Under the pieces are notes generated by a model. It saw only the letters and a list, made by a program, of their open reading frames with translations. It was not told where the DNA came from and ran no database searches. This document shows positions 1,794-54,431 of a stretch of DNA of 64,000 bases, one piece after another. Both the position numbers and the translations under genes were made by a program. The stretch lies in contig NZ_NEWK01000001.1 of assembly GCF_002217655.1 (NCBI RefSeq), positions 630,001 to 694,000 on the forward strand. Direction: 5' to 3'. How positions within the stretch are numbered: the stretch's first letter is position 1; every line of letters starts with the position of its first letter. This stretch comes from Geobacillus thermocatenulatus. Lineage in GTDB: Bacteria > Bacillota > Bacilli > Bacillales > Anoxybacillaceae.

Positions 1794-3116
1794 CTACAAA
1801 TAGCGCAGCCATAAATAGGCGTGCGACAAAAGCAAAGCGACGAGCGTGAGCGGCGCGCCGATTTTCAAAAAATCCATGTATGTAAAACCATGCCCTTCGC
1901 GCGACGCCATGCCGGCGACAATGACGTTCGCCGAGGCGCCGATGAGCGTCCCGTTCCCGCCGAGGCAGGCGCCGAGCGACAAGGCCCACCACAGCACGTC
2001 AATTTGCGGTGCGTCGGGAGACAGCCCCATGCCGACCGCCATATCTTGAATGAGCGGGATCATCGTGGCGACAAACGGAATGTTGTCGATCGTCGCCGAG
2101 GCGATGCCGGACAGCCAAAGGATGAAATAGGCGGCTGTGGAAATGTCGCCGCCGGTGAACTCGAGCGTTTTTTCCGCCAATGATTTGATCAAGCCGATGT
2201 CAACAAGCCCGCCGACCAAGACAAACAATCCGGCAAAAAAGAAAATCGTCCCCCATTCGATCGAATGGAAAACATCCTCGATTTCGTGCTCCGGCACGGC
2301 GATGAGCATGAGCGCGACCGCCCCGGTCATGGCGATGACGGCCGCATCCACATGAATGGCGGAATGAAGGATGAAGCCAAGAATTGTCAGTCCGAGCACG
2401 GCGACCGATTTGCGCATCAGTTTTGCGTCTTGAATGTAGTCGGCGTCGCGAAGCGCCATCAGCTTTTGAATCAATGTTGGATTGGTTTTCAGCTGCTTTC
2501 GGTAAATGAACGCAAGCAATGCGACCGTGACGATGGCGATTACCACGACGATCGGCGTCAAGTTGAACAAAAAGGCGTTGAAGTCGAGATGCTTGTTCGC
2601 TGAGCCGATCATGATGTTCGGCGGGTCGCCGATCAACGTCGCCGTGCCGCCGATGTTCGACAACAGCACTTCCGAGATCAAGTACGGCACCGGGTTCACT
2701 TGAAGCATGCGCGTAATGGAGAACGTCACCGGCACGACAAGCAGCACGGTCGTGACGTTGTCCAAAAACGCTGACAGCAGCCCGGTCAACAAAGACAGCA
2801 TCACCAAAATGCGGACCGGGCTGCCTTTCGCGAGCTTGGCAGCCTTAATGGCCATGTATTGAAAAAAGCCGGACTTGCTGGTAATGCCGACTAAAATCAT
2901 CATGCCGATCAGCAGTGTGATTGTTCCCCATTCAATATGGTGGGTAAACGCTTTCTCCGCATCGACGATGCCGAAGATGACCATAAGAGCGGCGCCCAGC
3001 AAGGCGATGACCGCCCGGTGAATTTTTTCCGCGATGATCATCGCGTATGTCATCAAGAAAACGGCAATGGCAAAATAATATTGAACGTTTGACACGTGTG
3101 CGGCAGCATGATCCAT
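1794..3116 (-). CDS. ArsB/NhaD-type ion transporter permease
   Basis: A 440-residue polytopic membrane protein of the ArsB/NhaD (ion transporter) superfamily, which moves Na+/H+, arsenite or organic anions depending on the branch. Two inverted structural halves are visible. The first has LSAFLDNVTT (about residue 114) and NIGGTATLIGDPPN (about 154-167). The second has the counterparts ASATIDNIPF and CLGGNGTLIGASAN. These re-entrant DN and GDPPN-type motifs are the family hallmarks. Length is normal. The substrate cannot be told from sequence alone. SD AGGAGGGG precedes the ATG at 3116. Confidence 0.85.
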   Translation of the reverse strand: MDHAAAHVSNVQYYFAIAVFLMTYAMIIAEKIHRAVIALLGAALMVIFGIVDAEKAFTHHIEWGTITLLIGMMILVGITSKSGFFQYMAIKAAKLAKGSPVRILVMLSLLTGLLSAFLDNVTTVLLVVPVTFSITRMLQVNPVPYLISEVLLSNIGGTATLIGDPPNIMIGSANKHLDFNAFLFNLTPIVVVIAIVTVALLAFIYRKQLKTNPTLIQKLMALRDADYIQDAKLMRKSVAVLGLTILGFILHSAIHVDAAVIAMTGAVALMLIAVPEHEIEDVFHSIEWGTIFFFAGLFVLVGGLVDIGLIKSLAEKTLEFTGGDISTAAYFILWLSGIASATIDNIPFVATMIPLIQDMAVGMGLSPDAPQIDVLWWALSLGACLGGNGTLIGASANVIVAGMASREGHGFTYMDFLKIGAPLTLVALLLSHAYLWLRYL

Positions 3117-3138
3117 TTGTACCCCTCCTTTTCTCCAG

Positions 3139-3576
3139 TTATGTCGTCATGTCGTGAAAACCGCTCCCACATGCTGGGCATGTCCAGTTCCGGCGCTCGC
3201 TCGAGGCTTCACGGACGTAAAACGTAAAGGAACAATGCGGACAAGGAATTTCGCGCACCCGATCGATCAACATCCGCCTCCTCGGTTCAGCTGAATCGTC
3301 GGTGTCAATGATTTCGACATGGATGTCATCGCGCGATTCGTCTTCGGCGAGGATGGCTCCTTCCGCTTCCTCCTTCGTACGCCACCCGCGGCCGATCAAA
3401 TGCTGCTCAAGCTGGCTGTGCGAGGAGTGGGCGAGCATGTCTTCGGCCAGTTTCATATATTGCGCGTCCGTCAAGGCGGCAAATGGAACGGTTGACTCCT
3501 GCTTTTGCCAATACGCCCGCAGCTGGTCTTCGGTAAAAATCAATGTGACAATTTGATGGATGACGACATTTTTCAT
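3139..3576 (-). CDS. zinc-ribbon protein, function unknown
   Basis: A 145-residue protein starting MKNVVIHQ at 3576 behind SD AAGGAGG. Upstream codons of the same frame lie over kapD and are ignored. The N-terminal part is helical and acidic, containing LEQHLIGRGW. The C-terminus has a CPHC...CPAC zinc ribbon (about residues 111-137). The gap to the permease gene downstream is only 22 bp, so the two are probably co-transcribed from a promoter in the 3577-3798 region that is divergent from kapD. I do not recognise the family and assign no function. Confidence 0.7.
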   Translation of the reverse strand: MKNVVIHQIVTLIFTEDQLRAYWQKQESTVPFAALTDAQYMKLAEDMLAHSSHSQLEQHLIGRGWRTKEEAEGAILAEDESRDDIHVEIIDTDDSAEPRRRMLIDRVREIPCPHCSFTFYVREASSERRNWTCPACGSGFHDMTT

Positions 3577-3798
3577 CAACTCAGCCTCCTTTTCTTCATC
3601 ATAGCATAGGTGCAAAAAGAAAAAAACGGCGAGGGCGGCCTGCTTCCGGACGCCTCTTTTTTCTGCAAAGCACCCGTTGATTCCTCCGTCATCCGCCTCT
3701 TTTTCGCCATTTTCTGAAAAAAGAAATAAACAATCGCTTCTGCGTGATATAATAATAGTAAGACGGACGGCAGCAGCGTGCCGGAAAGGGGGGAAGCG

Positions 3799-4422
3799 AT
3801 GATGGACAGCCCGCAATATTTGTTTCTCGATTTTGAATTTACGATGCCGGAGACGAAAACAAACCCGAATGGGTTTTGCCCGGAAATTATTGAAGTCGGC
3901 CTTGTCGCGGTTGTGGACGATCAAATCATCGGCCAATTTTCTTCCTATGTGAAGCCGCTCCGCTTTCCGCAGCTTACGGAACGGTGCAAGTCGTTTCTCA
4001 ACATCACGCAAGAACAAATTGACAGCGGAATGAGTTTTTATGAGTTGGTTTCCTTGCTTCGGCAATATGACCGTGAGCGCCCGACGATCGTCATCACTTG
4101 GGGGGGCATGGACATGAAAGTGCTCCGGGAAAACTGCCGATCGGCGCAAGTGGAATTCCCGTTTACGGGCGAGCACCGCGATTTAGCCATGGAGTATAAG
4201 CGGTTTTTCGGCAACAAAAATCAAACCGCCCTGCGCAAGGCGGTGCAAGAGTACGGCAATGAGGCAGTTGGAAAAGCCCATTGCGCGCTCGATGATGCGT
4301 TCACCGCGTATACGATTTTCCGGTTGGTGGAAAACGACAAAAAATATTTAGCGAAGACAAAGCCGCCGACAATCGGGGAACGGATCGATTTGACCCAGTT
4401 GCGGAAAAAATTCGCTTTATAG
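3799..4422 (+). CDS. kapD: KapD, DEDDh 3'-5' exonuclease family
   Basis: A 207-residue exonuclease-fold protein like B. subtilis KapD, an inhibitor of the KinA/KinB sporulation pathway. DEDDh catalytic residues are visible: FLDFEF (D and E, near the N-terminus), the D of GGMDMKVL, and H..D in HCALDDAF near residue 165. The start is ATG 3799, chosen over the upstream GTG because GGGGGGAAGCG is correctly placed and the protein then begins as in KapD. In B. subtilis kinB-kapB-kapD are adjacent; here neither kinB nor kapB is next to it. Nuclease activity is inferred from conserved residues. Confidence 0.9.
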   Translation: MMDSPQYLFLDFEFTMPETKTNPNGFCPEIIEVGLVAVVDDQIIGQFSSYVKPLRFPQLTERCKSFLNITQEQIDSGMSFYELVSLLRQYDRERPTIVITWGGMDMKVLRENCRSAQVEFPFTGEHRDLAMEYKRFFGNKNQTALRKAVQEYGNEAVGKAHCALDDAFTAYTIFRLVENDKKYLAKTKPPTIGERIDLTQLRKKFAL

Positions 4423-18988: not shown

Positions 18989-19013
18989 GGGAGATGGCGA
19001 TGAGCCATCTCCC
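18989..19013. repeat. perfect 10-bp inverted repeat
   Basis: GGGAGATGGC (18989-18998) / GCCATCTCCC (19004-19013) with a 5-nt loop and no T-run. It lies in the non-coding stretch 18826-19021, where I see no gene. Confidence 0.5.
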
Positions 19014-19056: not shown

Positions 19057-19117
19057 TGGAGCATACCGGGCTCGAACCGGTGACCTTCGCGCTGCCAGCA
19101 CGACGCTCTCCCACGCT
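19057..19117 (-). pseudogene. tRNA-Ala(GGC) truncated at the D-loop
   Basis: Minus-strand reading gives the D-loop (AGCGTGGGA), 3' D-stem GAGC, anticodon arm TCGTG-CTGGCAG-CGCGA (anticodon GGC), T-arm ACCGG-TTCGAGC-CCGGT, acceptor ATGCTCC and discriminator A. Just 5' of the D-loop the expected GCTC and the matching acceptor strand (GGRGCAT) are absent; the sequence there is GACA preceded by unrelated bases. About 13 nt of the tRNA 5' end are missing, so it cannot fold as a normal tRNA. The terminator still follows it. Confidence 0.7.
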
Positions 19118-19276
19118 TGTCAGTTACACTGCCCAAAATCCTTGAAAAACAGCTTCGTGTTTTATTCAAGTAAAAGTATAGCAAATAGCATTTATTATGT
19201 GAATATGACAGTCAATCCAAGAAATGATTTTTATAAAAGGGTGGGGTAAAATGACGGATGGGTGTGCATTTTGTAG

Positions 19277-19306
19277 TTGATATTTTTCTGTTTTTTATGA
19301 TAATAT
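19277..19306 (+). promoter_or_regulatory. promoter for element tRNA-Ala
   Basis: TTGATA at 19277-19282 with GATAAT at 19299-19304 (16 bp) or TAATAT at 19301-19306 (18 bp). It lies 35-40 bp upstream of the tRNA 5' end. Confidence 0.55.
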
Positions 19307-19340
19307 AAGTAGTGTCCGTAATGAAAAGTGTCATAAGAAT

Positions 19341-19412
19341 GGGGCATTAGTTCAGTGGGAGAACGCTTCGCTGGCAGCGAAGAGGTCATCGGTTCGAATC
19401 CGATATGCTCCA
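19341..19412 (+). tRNA. tRNA-Ala(GGC), complete
   Basis: A full cloverleaf of 72 nt. Acceptor GGGGCAT pairs with ATGCTCC (one G-U). D-arm GTTC...GAAC, anticodon arm CTTCG-CTGGCAG-CGAAG with GGC at the tip, T-arm ATCGG-TTCGAAT-CCGAT, discriminator A. CCA is not encoded. It differs at many positions from the truncated minus-strand copy but has the same anticodon. It has its own promoter and terminator, so it is an autonomous unit probably replacing the interrupted host tRNA gene. Confidence 0.9.
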
Positions 19413-19425
19413 TATACATACTAGC

Positions 19426-19454
19426 AAAAGCGACAGTGATGTCGCTTTTTTTTT
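19426..19454 (+). terminator. tRNA-Ala terminator
   Basis: AAAGCGACA/TGTCGCTTT with a 4-nt loop and a long T-run. Confidence 0.85.
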
Positions 19455-19574
19455 ATTTTTTCACTTCGTTGTTAACGTATAATGTTGATTTTTAATTAAC
19501 GGGCAGGAATGTGGAAGAAGGACATTGTATAAATATAGTGGAATTTATTAGTAAGTTTGGGAGGGGTACAATAC

Positions 19575-20174
19575 ATGGAGTTTTTTAAAAACGTTAAGTG
19601 GTTTTTTGAAGAACTGCATGAGGCAAATAAAGAATTTGTGTCTGGTGTAAGACAAGACGTGAAGGAATTTAGAACAGACATGAAAGATATTGTAAAAGAA
19701 CATAATCCTACTATGGGTAAAGTGATTGAAGGAGCAGACAGACTTGCTCAAGCTATTGGTAACTTTATAAAGTCCAATCCTACTATCTTCGAACCAAAAA
19801 ATACAATAGTGCCCGATATGAAATCTATACTTCGAGAATCAAAAGAATGGAAAGAATTAAAAAGAGATTCTGAGTTAGAGTTGGCTGACCACTTAATAGC
19901 TAAACGAAAAGGCTATACTCATCACGGTCTGTATATTGGTAACAATCAGGTAATTCATTATTCAGAAGGTGAAGTAAGGATAGATAGCTTAGAAGATTTT
20001 AAAAAAGATTGTGAAATCAGAGTTATTGATAGCGTGGCTACCTACTCTAAAGAAGAGATTATCAGTAGAGCATTTTCTAGGTTGGGTGAAAAAAGATATA
20101 ATTTGGTTTTTAATAATTGTGAACATTTTGTAAACTGGTGCAGAAGTGGTGGTAAGATGACGGACAGTATATAA
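19575..20174 (+). CDS. LRAT-like (NlpC/P60 superfamily) domain protein
   Basis: About 199 residues from ATG 19575 (GGGAGGGG upstream; the TTG 18 nt earlier overlaps the SD). The N-terminal 95 residues are helical and charged. The C-terminal half has the LRAT/H-REV107 signature: ADHLIAKRKGYTHHGLYIG with the catalytic histidine in THHGLYIG (about residue 115) and NNCEHFVNWCRSG (about residue 178) with the catalytic cysteine in NCEHF. LRAT-fold enzymes are thiol acyltransferases or lipases; the substrate is unknown here. It is the first protein gene inside the element. No signal peptide is seen. Confidence 0.75.
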   Translation: MEFFKNVKWFFEELHEANKEFVSGVRQDVKEFRTDMKDIVKEHNPTMGKVIEGADRLAQAIGNFIKSNPTIFEPKNTIVPDMKSILRESKEWKELKRDSELELADHLIAKRKGYTHHGLYIGNNQVIHYSEGEVRIDSLEDFKKDCEIRVIDSVATYSKEEIISRAFSRLGEKRYNLVFNNCEHFVNWCRSGGKMTDSI

Positions 20175-49105: not shown

Positions 49106-49155
49106 TACCAGGAAATAAAAATTTCACCTTTTTAAAAAGAAGGGAGTTGAAAGAG

Positions 49156-52100
49156 ATGATAAAGTTGAGGAAGCGCAGCAGACAGTTCATATCGTGCATG
49201 TTGGTAATGGGTTTATTAGTTAACTCATTGCCAATAGGGGTATTTGCAGAGGGTGTAGATGAATCAAATATTGAAATAACAGAAAGCGAGGGGATAGTAA
49301 ATAATGAAGAAAGCCAAGCGAATCAAGAAATTAATGAAGGAGAGGAAAATCCAGAAAATCAGAATGAGGAAACTACTACAGGAACAGGAGAAGCGTCGGA
49401 GGCAACAAATACGGAGACGCCGAATGAAGGAAGCACAGAAGGAACAGGAGGAACAGCAGGACCAACAGGAGAATCAACAGGAGGAACCACAGAAGAAGCA
49501 ATAGCAGGAGAAGTAACAGACGGAGCCACAGGAGAAGCGATAACAGAATCAGATACCAATGCAGAGCAATCTGCACCAAATGAGAATGCATCAGAAATGT
49601 CATACAATAGCAATAATGATTACGAGTATTTTGTGGAAAATAACGAGGTAACTATTTTCAGGTATATAGGAACGGATAAAGATGTAGTTATTCCGAGTAC
49701 GATAGATGGTTATTCGGTAGTAGAGATTGCTGAAAATGCTTTTCTAAACAGTGGGATAAGATCAGTAGTCATACCAGAGGGTGTAAAACTGATAGGTGAT
49801 CAAGCGTTTATGGGTAATGAGTTGACCTCGGTAGATATACCGGGGAGTGTAACTCGGATAGGTGATTGGGCGTTTTTTGATAATGATTTAACTTCTGTAA
49901 CTATTGGGAGTAGTGTAGAGTATATAGGTTTAAGGGCATTTTCTCAGAACAATATAGATTTTATAAATTTACCTAGTTCAGTAAAAGTGATAGGTGATCA
50001 TGCTTTTTCTGTTAACAATCTTACGAGTATTGATATACCTGACAGTGTAACGGATATTGGAAAATATGCGTTTGCTGACAATCACATTGAAGTTGCGAAA
50101 CTACCAGTTGGTCTTACAACTATTAGTGAAGGTTTATTTTCTCATAACAATTTAACGAGTATAGACATACCTGAGAGTGTAGTTACTATTGAGGCTCATG
50201 CTTTTCGGGCAAATAATCTTGTTAATGTTAGAATACCAGACAATGTTACGTTCATTGGAGAGTATGCTTTTAGTTCTAACCTATTAACTTCAGTAATAAT
50301 CGGAGAAAAAGTAGAAACAATTGGAGAGAGGGCGTTTGGGTATAACAATTTAACAGAAGTAGTAATACCTGATTCAGTTAGATCAATTGGTCAGTATGTT
50401 TTTGCGGATAACAAATTAACAAAAGTAACATTATCAAATGCAATCACAGAAATTCCAACTGGTGCATTTATGAATAACGATTTTACAGAATTCGTTATTC
50501 CTGACGGGATTGTTTTAATTGGAGAATCTGCTTTTGTAGGGAACGAGTTAACTTCAGTGACATTTGGTCAATCTTTAAAGCAAATTAAGGACTTTGCGTT
50601 TTACGGTAATAACTTAACATCAGTAAATCTGCCAGAAGGGGTAAATTCAATTGGTTCTTATGCATTTGGTTCTAACAAATTAACATCAATAACAGTGAAT
50701 GGTTCATGGGAAAAAACATCGAATGGTTTAATTGGTGTCTATTTTGATTATTGGGCAGTAGAGGGAAATCAAACGAACCCTAGTGATTTAAAAGTATATG
50801 GGTATGCAGGAACAATGGTGGAGGAGGTAGCTAATTACCGTGGATACACGTTTATAGATATAACACCTGTTCCTGAGCCAGACCAACGACTTAAAATAAA
50901 TGAAGTATTTCCTGATGAGAATTTAGCAAAGTACTTTGCGGAGTGGATGAGTGCTTTACCAAGTTGGCAAGGTAAATCAGATTCCACATTTAGTATGGCA
51001 GAGCTTGACGCAAGAATTAAACTGAATGGTGCTTTAAATTTCAATGCTAGTAATCGAGGTATCAGAAGCTTAAAAGGTATGGAGATATTTGGTGATGTAG
51101 CAACTAAGTATAGTGATATTCCAGTTAACTTTAATTTTTCGGGTAATTTACTCGAAGATGTAGATCCTTTATATAAAATAACTTCTGTTCGAACATTATT
51201 TTTAAACGATAACAAGCTAAAGGATATAAAGGGTTTAAGGAATTTAAAATATGTGACTAGGGAAACAGCTTATGGAGCAGCAAGCTTGTATTCAGATGCG
51301 GCATTAAATCTTCAAAACAACTTATTAACGGATATTTCTCCTTTAAGTAATTTAAAGAGAGTGGAATCAAAAATAGACCTTTCTAATAATAAGTTGCAAA
51401 ATGTTGATGGTTTAAACGCAGAATTTATAGGGTTTTTAGATGTATCGAACAATTATCTAACTAGCTTAAATACTTCAGTTTTCGACCCAGACAAAGTGTA
51501 TGCAATTAAGGTAGACCATAATTTTATTCAAAATATCACGTCAGTAATACCTTCTGAGTACGTACAAAGACTTTATGGTGAGAATGATTACAGACCACAG
51601 TATTCATTTAATTTTACTCAATCATCATCAGTTAAAGTAGAGTACAGAGTTCGGGGTACTAATGAGTTAATCAGTTACGATATCGTTAATGATGTAGGGA
51701 ATTTCGAGACTAGGAAATATAAAGCGAAGAATCTTGCAGGTTACATTTTAGATGATGATTTGGAAAAGGAATTTAGTGGTATAGGTAAAGCATTTACTTC
51801 AGTGATCAAACCAGTTCTAGGTATAAAAAGTAGGGATGGTTTTACAGGTATACAGAATAGTAGCCGAAAATTTTCTTTTGTAACGCATGACAGTTATTCA
51901 AATCTTCCTAATAGTCCATATAAAACGGATGGTGCTGTATTATCTTATGATTCAGCAAGTGGAGATTTAGTTGTAGTCAGAGAAAGTAATGATCCTTTCT
52001 ATGTTTATACCGATGTAGATGTGTATGAAGGTAATATTTATCTAGGAACGTATTCAGTTCCAGTGTTAGGTCATGGCAGTCCAGATACAGCAGTGGTATT

Positions 52101-53478
52101 TTACTATAAACCTGTTGCTAAATGGACTTTAACAGTTAATATGGAAGGTCAGGGGTATGTATCACCTTATGTGGGAACATATAATTACGATAATGGAAGC
52201 AAAGTAAATTTGTACGCATCACCGAATTTTGGTTATCGATTTGATAAATGGGTAGTAAACGGAACAGAGTTTTTCTCACCTAGCATTACTATAACAATGG
52301 ATAGTAATAAAACGGCAGTAGCTCATTTTGTACCACTAGAGCAATACAAGTTATCAGTAAATATAGTGGGTGAAGGCGAAGTAAATGTATTAAACGAGTT
52401 TACAATGTCAAGGCAGACGTATGGTTCAGGTGATGAAGGAACATATGAAGGGGGTACGAGTTTATCTTTAACACCTGCACCAAAATTAGGTTATCGGTTT
52501 GTAAAGTGGGTAGTGGATGGAGTTGAAGTAAATGGTGATTACTTACCATTATATATGGACAGCAATAAAACGGTAGAGGCTCATTTTGAAAGTGTACCTT
52601 TAGTAAAACCATTAATAGGTCATATCATTGTAAAGTTTTTAGACATGTTGACGATGGAAAAGATTAAAGAAGATGAAGAAATTAAGAACGTACCTGTAGG
52701 TGAGTACACGTATACGGCAGAAGAAAAGATAGGAGATTATAAAATAGTTGGTGAAGCAGTTAAAACAGTTATTATTACAATGACGGATTTCTTTAAGGAA
52801 ATTATTTTCTTATATGAAAAAGAGGCATCACAACCGGAGCCAACACCACAACCACAACCAGAACCGAAGCCAGAACCAGTACAAGATCCGAAACCGGAAC
52901 CAGTACAAGACCCGAAACCGGAACCAGTACAAGACCCGAAACCGGAACCAGTACAAGACCCGAAACCGGAACCAGTACAAGACCCGAAACCGGAACCAGT
53001 ACAAGACCGAAACCGGAACCAGTACAAGACCCGAAACCGGAACCAGTACAAGACCCGAAACCGGAACCAGTACAAGACCCGAAACCGGAACCAGTACAAG
53101 ACCCGAAACCGGAACCAGTACAAGATCCGAAACCGGAACCAGTACAAGATCCGAAACCGGAACCAGTACAAGACCCGAAACCGGAACCAGTACAAGACCC
53201 GAAACCGGAACCAGTACAAGACCCGAAACCGGAACCAGTACAAGACCCGAAACCGGAACCAGTACAAGACCCGAAACCGGAACCAGTACAAGATCCGAAA
53301 CCGGAACCAGTACAAGATCCGAAACCGGAACCAGTACAAGACCCGAAACCGGAACCAGTACAAGACCCGAAACCGGAACCAGTACAAGACCCGAAACCGG
53401 AACCAGTACAAGACCCGAAACCGGAACCAGTACAAGACCCGAAACCAGTGGTCAAGGTGCAAAAGCGTGATAAGGTAA
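49156..53478 (+). CDS. giant BspA-type leucine-rich-repeat surface protein, frameshifted in C-terminal repeats
   Basis: ATG 49156 (AGGGAG upstream). The signal peptide ends VFAEG. An acidic Thr/Glu/Gly-rich region runs to about residue 150. About 17 BspA-type 23-residue LRRs follow ([21 protein letters not shown] pattern, about 155-560), then other LRRs (about 660-800), two InlB-type B repeats ([22 protein letters not shown]), a MucBP-like segment and PKPEPVQD repeats. One repeat unit lacks a C (near 53007), so translation shifts to a basic RNRNQYKT repeat and stops at 53478. Without the shift it would join the 53448 frame and gain a membrane anchor. Confidence 0.8.
52867..53450 (+). repeat. 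24-bp tandem repeat tract with one 23-bp unit
   Basis: About 24 units of CCGAAACCGGAACCAGTACA + AGAC/T encode PKPEPVQD. At 53005-53010 the unit has GACCGA instead of GACCCGA, giving 23 bp. The units are near-identical, so recombination or slippage could gain or lose the short unit and switch the frame. All frames are open across the tract, producing several false long ORFs. Confidence 0.9.
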
Positions 53479-54431
53479 CAGTAATTGCAGTAGATAATAA
53501 AACGGATAGGGTATTAATGCAAAAAGAATTAACGAATTTAAGTTATGGTTATAACGAGGTGAGAGCACCTAAAATTGAAGGTTATGAGGTAACAGGACCT
53601 TCATTAACGTTAGTAAGAGTGACGGATAGTGGTAAGGAAATAGTAGTAAAATTCAGGTATGAAGTGAAAAAAGCATATGGAACAGTATTTGGCGTAGTTA
53701 TCGATAGTGAAGGTAATCCGATTGAAGGGGTAATGGTTGAATTACACTCTAAACCAAGAGTCACCTATACAAATGAAAAAGGTGAGTATAGATTTGAAAA
53801 TGTGGAATTAGGTAAGCACACAGTAATCCTAAAAAATCCGTACACATTAGAAGAAATAGCAAAAATAGAGGTTATAGCTTATAAAGATGTAAACGATGTT
53901 AATTCAGGGATAAAAGAAGTAGTTCAAGTATCTAATGAGGTGCGGAAGTCAATTGAGTTAAACGAAACAGTGAATACACAACGAATTGACTTTGTAATCG
54001 AACCGATTAAACCTAAAGAAGAGCCAAAGGACGGACCAAAAGATAAGCCACAAAATGAACCGAAAGAAAAACCAAAGGATGAACCAAAAGATAAATCACA
54101 AGATAAACCTAAAGGTAAGCCATCAAAAGATTTACCGATCATCCCGATAGTTTCAGCGATTCCTTTCATCATATTATTAGGTTATTTAAGACGTAAAAAT
54201 GTCAAGGTATATAATGAAGATGGTATGGTTGTAGCGAAGTTAAGAGTAAAAGCTAGACCAGAAACAGTAATAGACCTATCTGGAATGAAAGCTGAAACAT
54301 TAAAGGTAGTATTTAGAAATCCAGAGAGATTTAGAAAGTTGGAGTTAATGGTCAAGTATAACGATATGAAGGTTAGAGTAGAATTAGAAGAAGGTAAGAA
54401 CTATCTTGTATTTAAACCAACAGAGGAATAA
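53448..54431 (+). CDS. C-terminal anchor portion of the BspA-type giant (other frame)
   Basis: The PKPEPVQD frame resumes after the 1-base loss and continues here without a plausible start site, so this is the tail of the 49156 gene. It contains a MucBP/carboxypeptidase-regulatory-like domain ([23 protein letters not shown]), a Lys/Pro/Asp-rich wall-spanning linker, and a transmembrane helix (about 54137-54190, [19 protein letters not shown]). An 80-residue cytoplasmic domain follows ([21 protein letters not shown]...). There is no LPXTG. A cytoplasmic domain after the anchor is unusual for such proteins and hints at signalling or internal tethering. Confidence 0.75.

Follow-up and report, generated by a model that had tools for sequence, protein, structure and literature searches.

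How a host tRNA gene came to be left in two pieces by a mobile element, and why a complete tRNA of the same isoacceptor lies just inside that element, are the questions raised by this locus of Geobacillus thermocatenulatus. The window, the whole stretch of 64,000 nucleotides analyzed here, corresponds to bases 630001-694000 of contig C1 in a 3.56-Mb genome (G000) assembled in two contigs. Based on the sequence and an empty-site alignment, what lies at 19057-19113 on the minus strand is the 3' part of a tRNA-Ala(GGC) gene of the host, which starts with the core in the D-loop, reaches as far as the discriminator base and is severed from its own 5' part and promoter region. ARAGORN, and Rfam at its gathering threshold, did not call this remnant as a gene. 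It keeps a terminator-like hairpin at 19050-19028 on the same strand, recognized by pattern match only, in agreement with the first-pass annotation. That annotation was also right that 5' nucleotides of the host tRNA are missing, but gave their number as 13; the stretch lost from the remnant is the first 16 nt (GGGGCATTAGCTCAGT), and the following 6 nt, TGGGAG, are found at both ends of the element. The missing 5' part, predicted to lie at the right junction, is indeed present there: GGGGCATTAGCTCAGTTGGGAG is located at G000:C1:701019-701040 on the minus strand, outside the window and 51.9 kb from the 3' part. No tRNA gene was called by ARAGORN at attL or attR, each end being an incomplete tRNA, and the host gene is split and not regenerated, as had been claimed.

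The unoccupied form of the site was identified in Geobacillus zalihae. The segment G000:C1:701013-701464, which includes the 5' part and its upstream region, matches at 97% the query around the intact G. zalihae gene. The two host flanks align to positions 3338-3850 (94%) and 2748-3343 (96%) of the empty site, an agreement that is not due to chance, and overlap there by exactly 6 bp, TGGGAG, in the D-loop. This shared core, located on the minus strand at 19108-19113 in attL and at G000:C1:701019-701024 in attR, beyond the window, bears out the proposal that the element targets the D-loop. Exact matches to the tRNA 3' part were found at a total of 20 loci; the gene is intact in relatives lacking the element, 19 of the 20 loci having an intact 5' part before the match, and the remaining one, from G. 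icigianus (L019), shows a junction identical to that of the window. On the minus strand the element arm of attL (GGGCAGTGTAACTGACAAGCG) spans 19114-19134, and the opposite arm, on the attR side, is GGCGTCATTGTTAGAATGACTGCCC. The predicted attP arms partly form an inverted repeat, GGGCAGT...ACTGCCC, equalled by 39 of 2000 shuffles; in attB, no significant dyad was detected by the shuffle test (1921 of 2000 shuffles equally good). The insertion is precise, at a single site, with a very short shared core (6 bp at the empty site), and the observation of a split tRNA-Ala(GGC) together with a complete carried tRNA is confirmed.

The element measures 51,911 bp from core to core. Its portion inside the window extends from 19108 to 64000 and continues to G000:C1:701019, 7.0 kb past the window end. 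Near position 19000 the G+C content drops from 0.51-0.62 in the preceding 18 kb (past the first kb) to 0.30-0.43 inside. The final gene before the right junction, at attR, encodes a protein of 594 aa (G000:C1:699387-701171, plus strand) with Resolvase (PF00239), Recombinase (PF07508) and zinc-ribbon (PF13408) domains above cut-off, and the integrase is therefore a large serine recombinase (LSR). Its reading frame crosses attR into host DNA; the protein has 594 aa in the integrated form and would have 565 aa in the predicted circle. Among the element ORFs scanned, no tyrosine recombinase was found, no transfer or virion gene was recognized, and Pfam, NCBIfam and PHROGs revealed no relaxase or VirB4-type transfer gene. 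Other ORFs scanned encode a D12-type methyltransferase, two small serine recombinases, proteins with LRAT, CAP and PLD domains, and large surface-like proteins.

Several features of the element's gene content deserve separate description. Going inward from the left end and past the carried tRNA, the first ORF of appreciable size (window 19557-20174) encodes an LRAT-domain protein (4e-24). A type I-like restriction-modification pair is located close to the right end, near the integrase (L033 1633-5804; G000:C1:694633-698804). One member is an N6 methylase whose N-terminus is of the HsdR type, and the other resembles a type I specificity subunit; against the MADS2 methylase model the N6 methylase scored 183.9 bits, under the cut-off of 720. 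A 24-bp tandem repeat of 24.5 copies with 98% matches (window 52832-53448) sits near the 3' end of an ORF for a 1443-aa surface-like protein (49147-53478), which changes partway from PKPEPVQD to RNRNQYKT repeats and is overlapped by the ORF 53448-54431. This ORF pair looks like one gene split by slip, and phase variation is possible. Megablast of the element left end against plasmids gave no match.

Within the family, the LSR was detected in three of the 41 genomes (E <= 1e-40), namely in G000, in G017 and, as a remnant, in G002. The LSR match in G017 is 100% over 540 aa, and attL and attR sequences identical to those of G000 were found there with flanks of its own, together with the same carried tRNA. 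G017 is a draft with the element ends on two contigs, and its 8292-base contig matches G. icigianus G1w1 (L019).

The complete carried tRNA, which had been described as tRNA-Ala with the same anticodon, was called as tRNA-Ala(GGC) by ARAGORN and Rfam at 19341-19412 on the plus strand (68.2 bits), and represents the sole Rfam match in the window. The annotation correctly placed it inside the element, at 220 bp; the measured distance from the junction is 227 bp. The isoacceptor is identical to that of the split gene (Ala-GGC in both). The tRNA includes a G3-U70 pair, the main alanine identity signal, and its D-loop consists of 7 nt versus 8 nt in the split gene. The promoter and terminator ascribed to it correspond to a promoter-like pair, TTGATA-18-TAATAT (also TTGATA-16-GATAAT), at 19277-19306 upstream and a terminator-like hairpin at 19426-19449 on the 3' side, both on the plus strand; these are matches to a consensus and a pattern only, counted at 4 versus 1.9 in shuffles for promoter-like pairs and at 2 versus 0.6 for terminator-like hairpins.

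It is highly probable, in our judgement, that the element's own LSR recombined attP with an attB in the D-loop, that the carried tRNA offsets the split gene, and that its shorter D-loop serves for self-immunity. In this model the LSR of the 51.9-kb element would act on attP and on an attB whose centre lies within the D-loop of the host tRNA-Ala(GGC). Serine integrases require no more than a few bases of identity, here TGGGAG, and because of this short requirement the insertion cannot rebuild the tRNA gene, of which one end of the element keeps the 5' part and the other the 3' part without its promoter. The order in the predicted circle would be integrase, attP and tRNA, and the complete tRNA-Ala(GGC) beside attP, presumably expressed and charged, would compensate for the loss of the split gene. 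A D-loop shorter by one base would shift the integrase half-sites relative to each other and probably make a poor attB, thereby protecting the carried tRNA, if imperfectly.

Relatives of the LSR, with identity of at most 57%, were gathered from the LSR, from a phage relative and from two alignments; a viral scan using the window's LSR alone found no relative. A tree with midpoint root was made of 45 LSR rows, after eight near copies (L129, L133, L137, L142, L149, L166, L168 and L169) and four partial or distant sequences (L161, L127, L113 and L152) had been left out; L154, L160 and L171-L175, whose sequences are incomplete or reach no more than 28% identity, were excluded from the outset. A total of 35 LSRs are located on one side of a 100/100 branch. 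R1, a tRNA covariance model, gave a match (E <= 0.05) no farther than 1 kb from the LSR for 23 of these 35 and for none of the 10 outside (Fisher's exact p = 2e-4, kinship ignored), as counted by hand with a model in which 7 of the 16 sequences are carried tRNAs of these loci and match by construction; ARAGORN also calls those seven. The tRNAs or fragments near the clade LSRs are mostly Ala, with Val in some cases. Among the 12 clade members with no R1 match within 1 kb, L114, L128 and L140 have fewer than 100 bases past the LSR; of the 10 rows outside the clade, L164 lacks any sequence in that place. Tree labels of L128, L162, L114, L124 and L145 were set by eye or from distant matches, L124 and L145 having a remnant-grade match more than 3 kb from the LSR. 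Three of the 10 LSRs outside the clade (L148, L153 and L159) adjoin a prolyl-isomerase-like reading frame, as judged by eye.

The same architecture is found in relatives within the clade. In the free-form loci L130 and L132, the order read by eye is LSR, an uninterrupted attP with a GGGAG-like core, and a complete tRNA-Ala; in L131, L136, L144 and L147 the tRNA 3' part begins at or close to GGGAG. Counting against the main reading, L161 (22% identity, outside the tree) ends at a tRNA 3' end as well. A Val subclade formed by L128, L162 and L177 (100/100) is joined to the window's LSR at 99/94. In G861, the record of L162, the 3' half of a host tRNA-Val(GAC) starts from TGGGAG, with a complete tRNA-Val(GAC) at a distance of 0.1 kb, and the LSR lies 70 kb off, followed by the 5' half, of which only the D-arm matches R1 (E = 0.66), the rest being identified by eye. 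In G850, which is the record of L128, attP is located at the ends, and a tRNA-Val(GAC) is carried. In G791, both tRNA-Val(GAC) halves, a complete tRNA-Val(GAC) and the LSR are contained in 2 kb, a structure shared by G826, G832 and G833; tRNA-Val(GAC) is intact in G812 and G821.

The idea that G791 holds a 2-kb minimal mobile element was rejected as over-reading. The structure stands between matching flanks in G826, G832 and G833 (93-97% over 2.26 kb), the host halves no longer have the GGGAG core, and the LSR frame, open in G791 and G826 (561 aa), is split in G832 (315 + 243 aa) and short in G833 (503 aa), so that the structure looks like an old, mostly vertical remnant. The dN/dS values of 0.11, 0.21 and 0.30 in the three pairs compared suggest past or partial constraint. 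In a separate case, the Ruminococcus albus plasmid pRUMAL02, a tRNA-Asn-like 3' part (L112:5684-5732; 21.2 bits) follows a 41%-identical LSR; a gene annotated as a tyrosine-type recombinase adjoins it, so that the att site may belong to either.

The D-loop is 7 nt long in 11 of the 15 carried tRNAs, 9 nt in two and the usual 8 nt in two, whereas 8-nt D-loops are present in 49 of 53 cellular Ala and Val tRNA genes (2/15 versus 49/53, p = 7e-9, with related sequences counted apart), the cellular set being the loci in hand, of which 20 were fetched by a pattern starting at GGGAGAGCG. The four cellular exceptions, all with 7-nt D-loops, are tRNA-Ala(GGC) and tRNA-Val(GAC) of a tRNA array in G000 and G017. 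One carried tRNA with the usual 8 nt, that of L151, has GGGAC for GGGAG and is located beside two 5' halves having GGGAG; in L182 and L183, an 8-nt 5' half lies beside a complete tRNA with a D-loop of 9 nt and 7 nt, respectively. These lengths fit selection for tRNAs that would stay uncut by the integrase. The escape is incomplete, as the ordinary D-loop is kept in L138 and the carried tRNA of G002 has recombined.

The tRNA sets of the hosts bear on whether the replacement is needed. In G000, a second intact tRNA-Ala(GGC) is located at C2:172132, and the replacement is therefore helpful at most in this host, where a substitute is not strictly needed. This copy belongs to an array of seven tRNAs (G000:C2:172053-172963; L039, L123) in the order Val(gac)-Ala(ggc)-Leu(gag)-Ser(cga)-Thr(cgt)-Tyr(gta)-Ile(gat), which is present in G017, G022 and G028 too. 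In G007, the draft genome of another genus of the family, the carried one is the only intact tRNA-Ala(GGC) found among 43 tRNA matches, of which 42 were typed by ARAGORN and one was partial; only the carried-tRNA end of the element was found there, with the split host gene decayed and the carried tRNA intact. In G002, a single contig, this end of the element also interrupts the host tRNA-Ala(GGC); the carried tRNA has been broken at GGGAG and continues into the integrase end (L066 13760-14500). The cause would be either the entry of a second element into the carried tRNA or recombination between it and attP within one element. No intact tRNA-Ala(GGC) was found among the 67 tRNA matches of G002, 67/67 of which were typed, and the isoacceptor can apparently be lost, a missed tRNA gene being possible in such searches (150/163 candidates scored in G002 and 150/172 in G000). 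Near the element remnant of G002, an 896-aa protein is encoded (L066 17036-19726), similar by eye only to a lanthionine-synthetase-type enzyme.

Based on these data, the carried tRNA might instead be mainly a device of self-protection or addiction, surviving the integrase and making the host dependent, with no role in easing integration. Such a reading agrees with the D-loop length, which differs from 8 nt in 13 of the 15 carried tRNAs, with the core altered to GGGAC in one of the remaining two, and with G007, in which the sole intact tRNA-Ala(GGC) found is that of the element; G002, however, has seemingly lost tRNA-Ala(GGC) and yet lives, and a carried tRNA could both compensate and protect. 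As the main function, we regard self-protection as unlikely.

Compensation by a tRNA of the split isoacceptor has also to be weighed against the proposal that this tRNA is routine cargo of a phage or plasmid, useful for the codon usage of the element or against host tRNA cutting, and close to the split gene only incidentally. In favour of cargo, many phages carry tRNAs, G000 retains another tRNA-Ala(GGC), L131 and L163 carry tRNA-Lys as well, and many split-tRNA records are without a complete tRNA. Among 16 virus records searched whole, some of which may be fragments, a complete tRNA was found in five, a remnant-grade match only (at most 50.4 bits) in nine and none in two. Eight of the nine remnant-only records belong to a 20-row branch of the clade (with L112, L144 and L183), L149 being counted with its near copy L147; this branch may leave split genes without a replacement, unless its records are fragments, and L151, L182 and L183 of the same branch do have a complete tRNA. 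Against the cargo proposal, the split and carried isoacceptors are identical in all four readable lineages, Ala-GGC in the window element and in L131 (target and carried tRNA alike) and Val-GAC in G861 and G791, the two changing together between the Ala and Val branches. In addition, no carried tRNA is farther than 0.5 kb from attP or the LSR, although they were sought in just that neighbourhood, a procedure that favours finding them there, and the carried tRNA is kept when the element decays. Coincidental cargo is accordingly rated as distinctly improbable. The earlier claim that the element compensates with its own tRNA holds in that a tRNA of the same isoacceptor is carried; a need for compensation is not fully supported, because G000 has a second intact copy, G002 has none, and 9/16 virus records have a remnant only and 2/16 none.

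As to the cause of the split, tyrosine integrases are usually responsible for insertions into tRNA genes, as stated in the cited part of PMC4383910, and only part of the element ORFs was scanned; a tyrosine integrase, or random insertion followed by decay, is nevertheless very improbable in view of the LSR at attR, the 6-bp core in the D-loop and the identical junctions in two Geobacillus with different flanks. Regeneration of the 3' end by a tyrosine integrase was rejected, as the regenerated gene is absent and an LSR is located at attR. An assembly artefact, in favour of which nothing was found, is hardly conceivable, since another, independent genome shows the junction sequences between flanks of its own.

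Beyond integration by the LSR with a compensating tRNA, a wider reading may be put forward tentatively: a clade of serine integrases would live by splitting and replacing tRNA genes, every element destroying a host tRNA at the D-loop and bringing one of the same isoacceptor with a re-spaced D-loop for escape from the integrase, and the replacement tRNAs, outliving the elements and being hit by later ones, would drive the turnover of host tRNA genes. Replacements that outlive their elements are represented by G007 and the 2-kb Val remnants in G791, G826, G832 and G833, and those hit later by G002 and by L151, L182 and L183, in which 5' halves of tRNAs stand next to complete ones. Along this line, the tRNA-Ala(GGC) and tRNA-Val(GAC) with 7-nt D-loops in the Geobacillus array may be captured copies from elements.

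Among known systems, the closest is the group of Rhizobium phage vTRX32-1, which interrupts tRNA-Leu and carries a complete tRNA-Leu without the 12-bp attachment motif, and for which replacement and avoidance of super-integration were proposed by the authors (PMC8631192, in the part consulted). The two systems share integration in a tRNA gene, the interrupted state of that gene and the carriage of a complete tRNA of the split isoacceptor. The vTRX32-1 group is podovirus-like and related to Autographiviridae, with a 12-bp motif, and the text consulted names no integrase, the words integrase and serine each occurring zero times (PMC8631192); in contrast, the present elements have a serine integrase, a D-loop site with a 6-bp core, and several isoacceptors. 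As regards a replacement of the vTRX32-1 type that is unusable as attB, the D-loop of the carried tRNA here is one base shorter, but this tRNA has recombined in G002. Islands in tRNA genes collected by Islander use tyrosine integrases, and the tRNA fragment of attP restores the gene, with crossovers in the anticodon loop, the T-loop or the junction of T and acceptor stems (PMC4383910, as far as cited). Site-specific insertion in a tRNA gene is common to both, but the present element has an LSR, a tRNA gene that is not restored and a crossover in the D-loop. In a survey of Mycobacterium, the sections cited describe tRNA sites for tyrosine systems (PMC10654092).

Serine recombinases at structured-RNA genes have a precedent in the Dehalococcoides islands, in which the CcrB-like serine recombinase DsiB acts at ssrA (tmRNA) and an ssrA direct repeat is found at the boundaries (PMC3146451, in the portion cited). 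The present element resembles them in this respect, and smaller serine recombinases are also on the element, but the target is a tRNA instead of ssrA. With the CcrB model, the LSR of the window scored 125.6 bits, far under the cut-off of 900, and is not a member of the CcrB family. Prolyl-isomerase genes are a known LSR target (PMC10083194), a protein-coding one, unlike the tRNA target of the clade; L148, L153 and L159 outside it lie beside a reading frame of this kind. The survey sorted its targets into clusters of proteins, among which a tRNA target would not appear, and in the main text available the word tRNA occurs zero times. LSR elements targeting rumA in Streptococcus have a direct repeat inside the integrase gene, and insertion alters the integrase C-terminus (PMC4701971, in the part cited), similar to the C-terminal swap of the present integrase between circle and integrated form; their target is a protein gene, different from the tRNA gene used here.

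In the openly licensed literature searched, no description of a serine integrase acting on the D-loop of a tRNA was found, which does not by itself establish absence from print. The complete replacement tRNA is already known from vTRX32-1, a serine recombinase is known at ssrA and tRNA sites are described for tyrosine systems, in the sources as far as cited; therefore, what appears to be new is the clade of serine integrases that split tRNA D-loops, some members bringing a matched whole tRNA. For the integrases of this clade, the attB sites lie in genes for tRNA-Ala and tRNA-Val and are short, conserved and predictable, which might be of use for genome engineering in thermophiles, and the arrangement offers a route by which mobile elements may replace the tRNA genes of their hosts.
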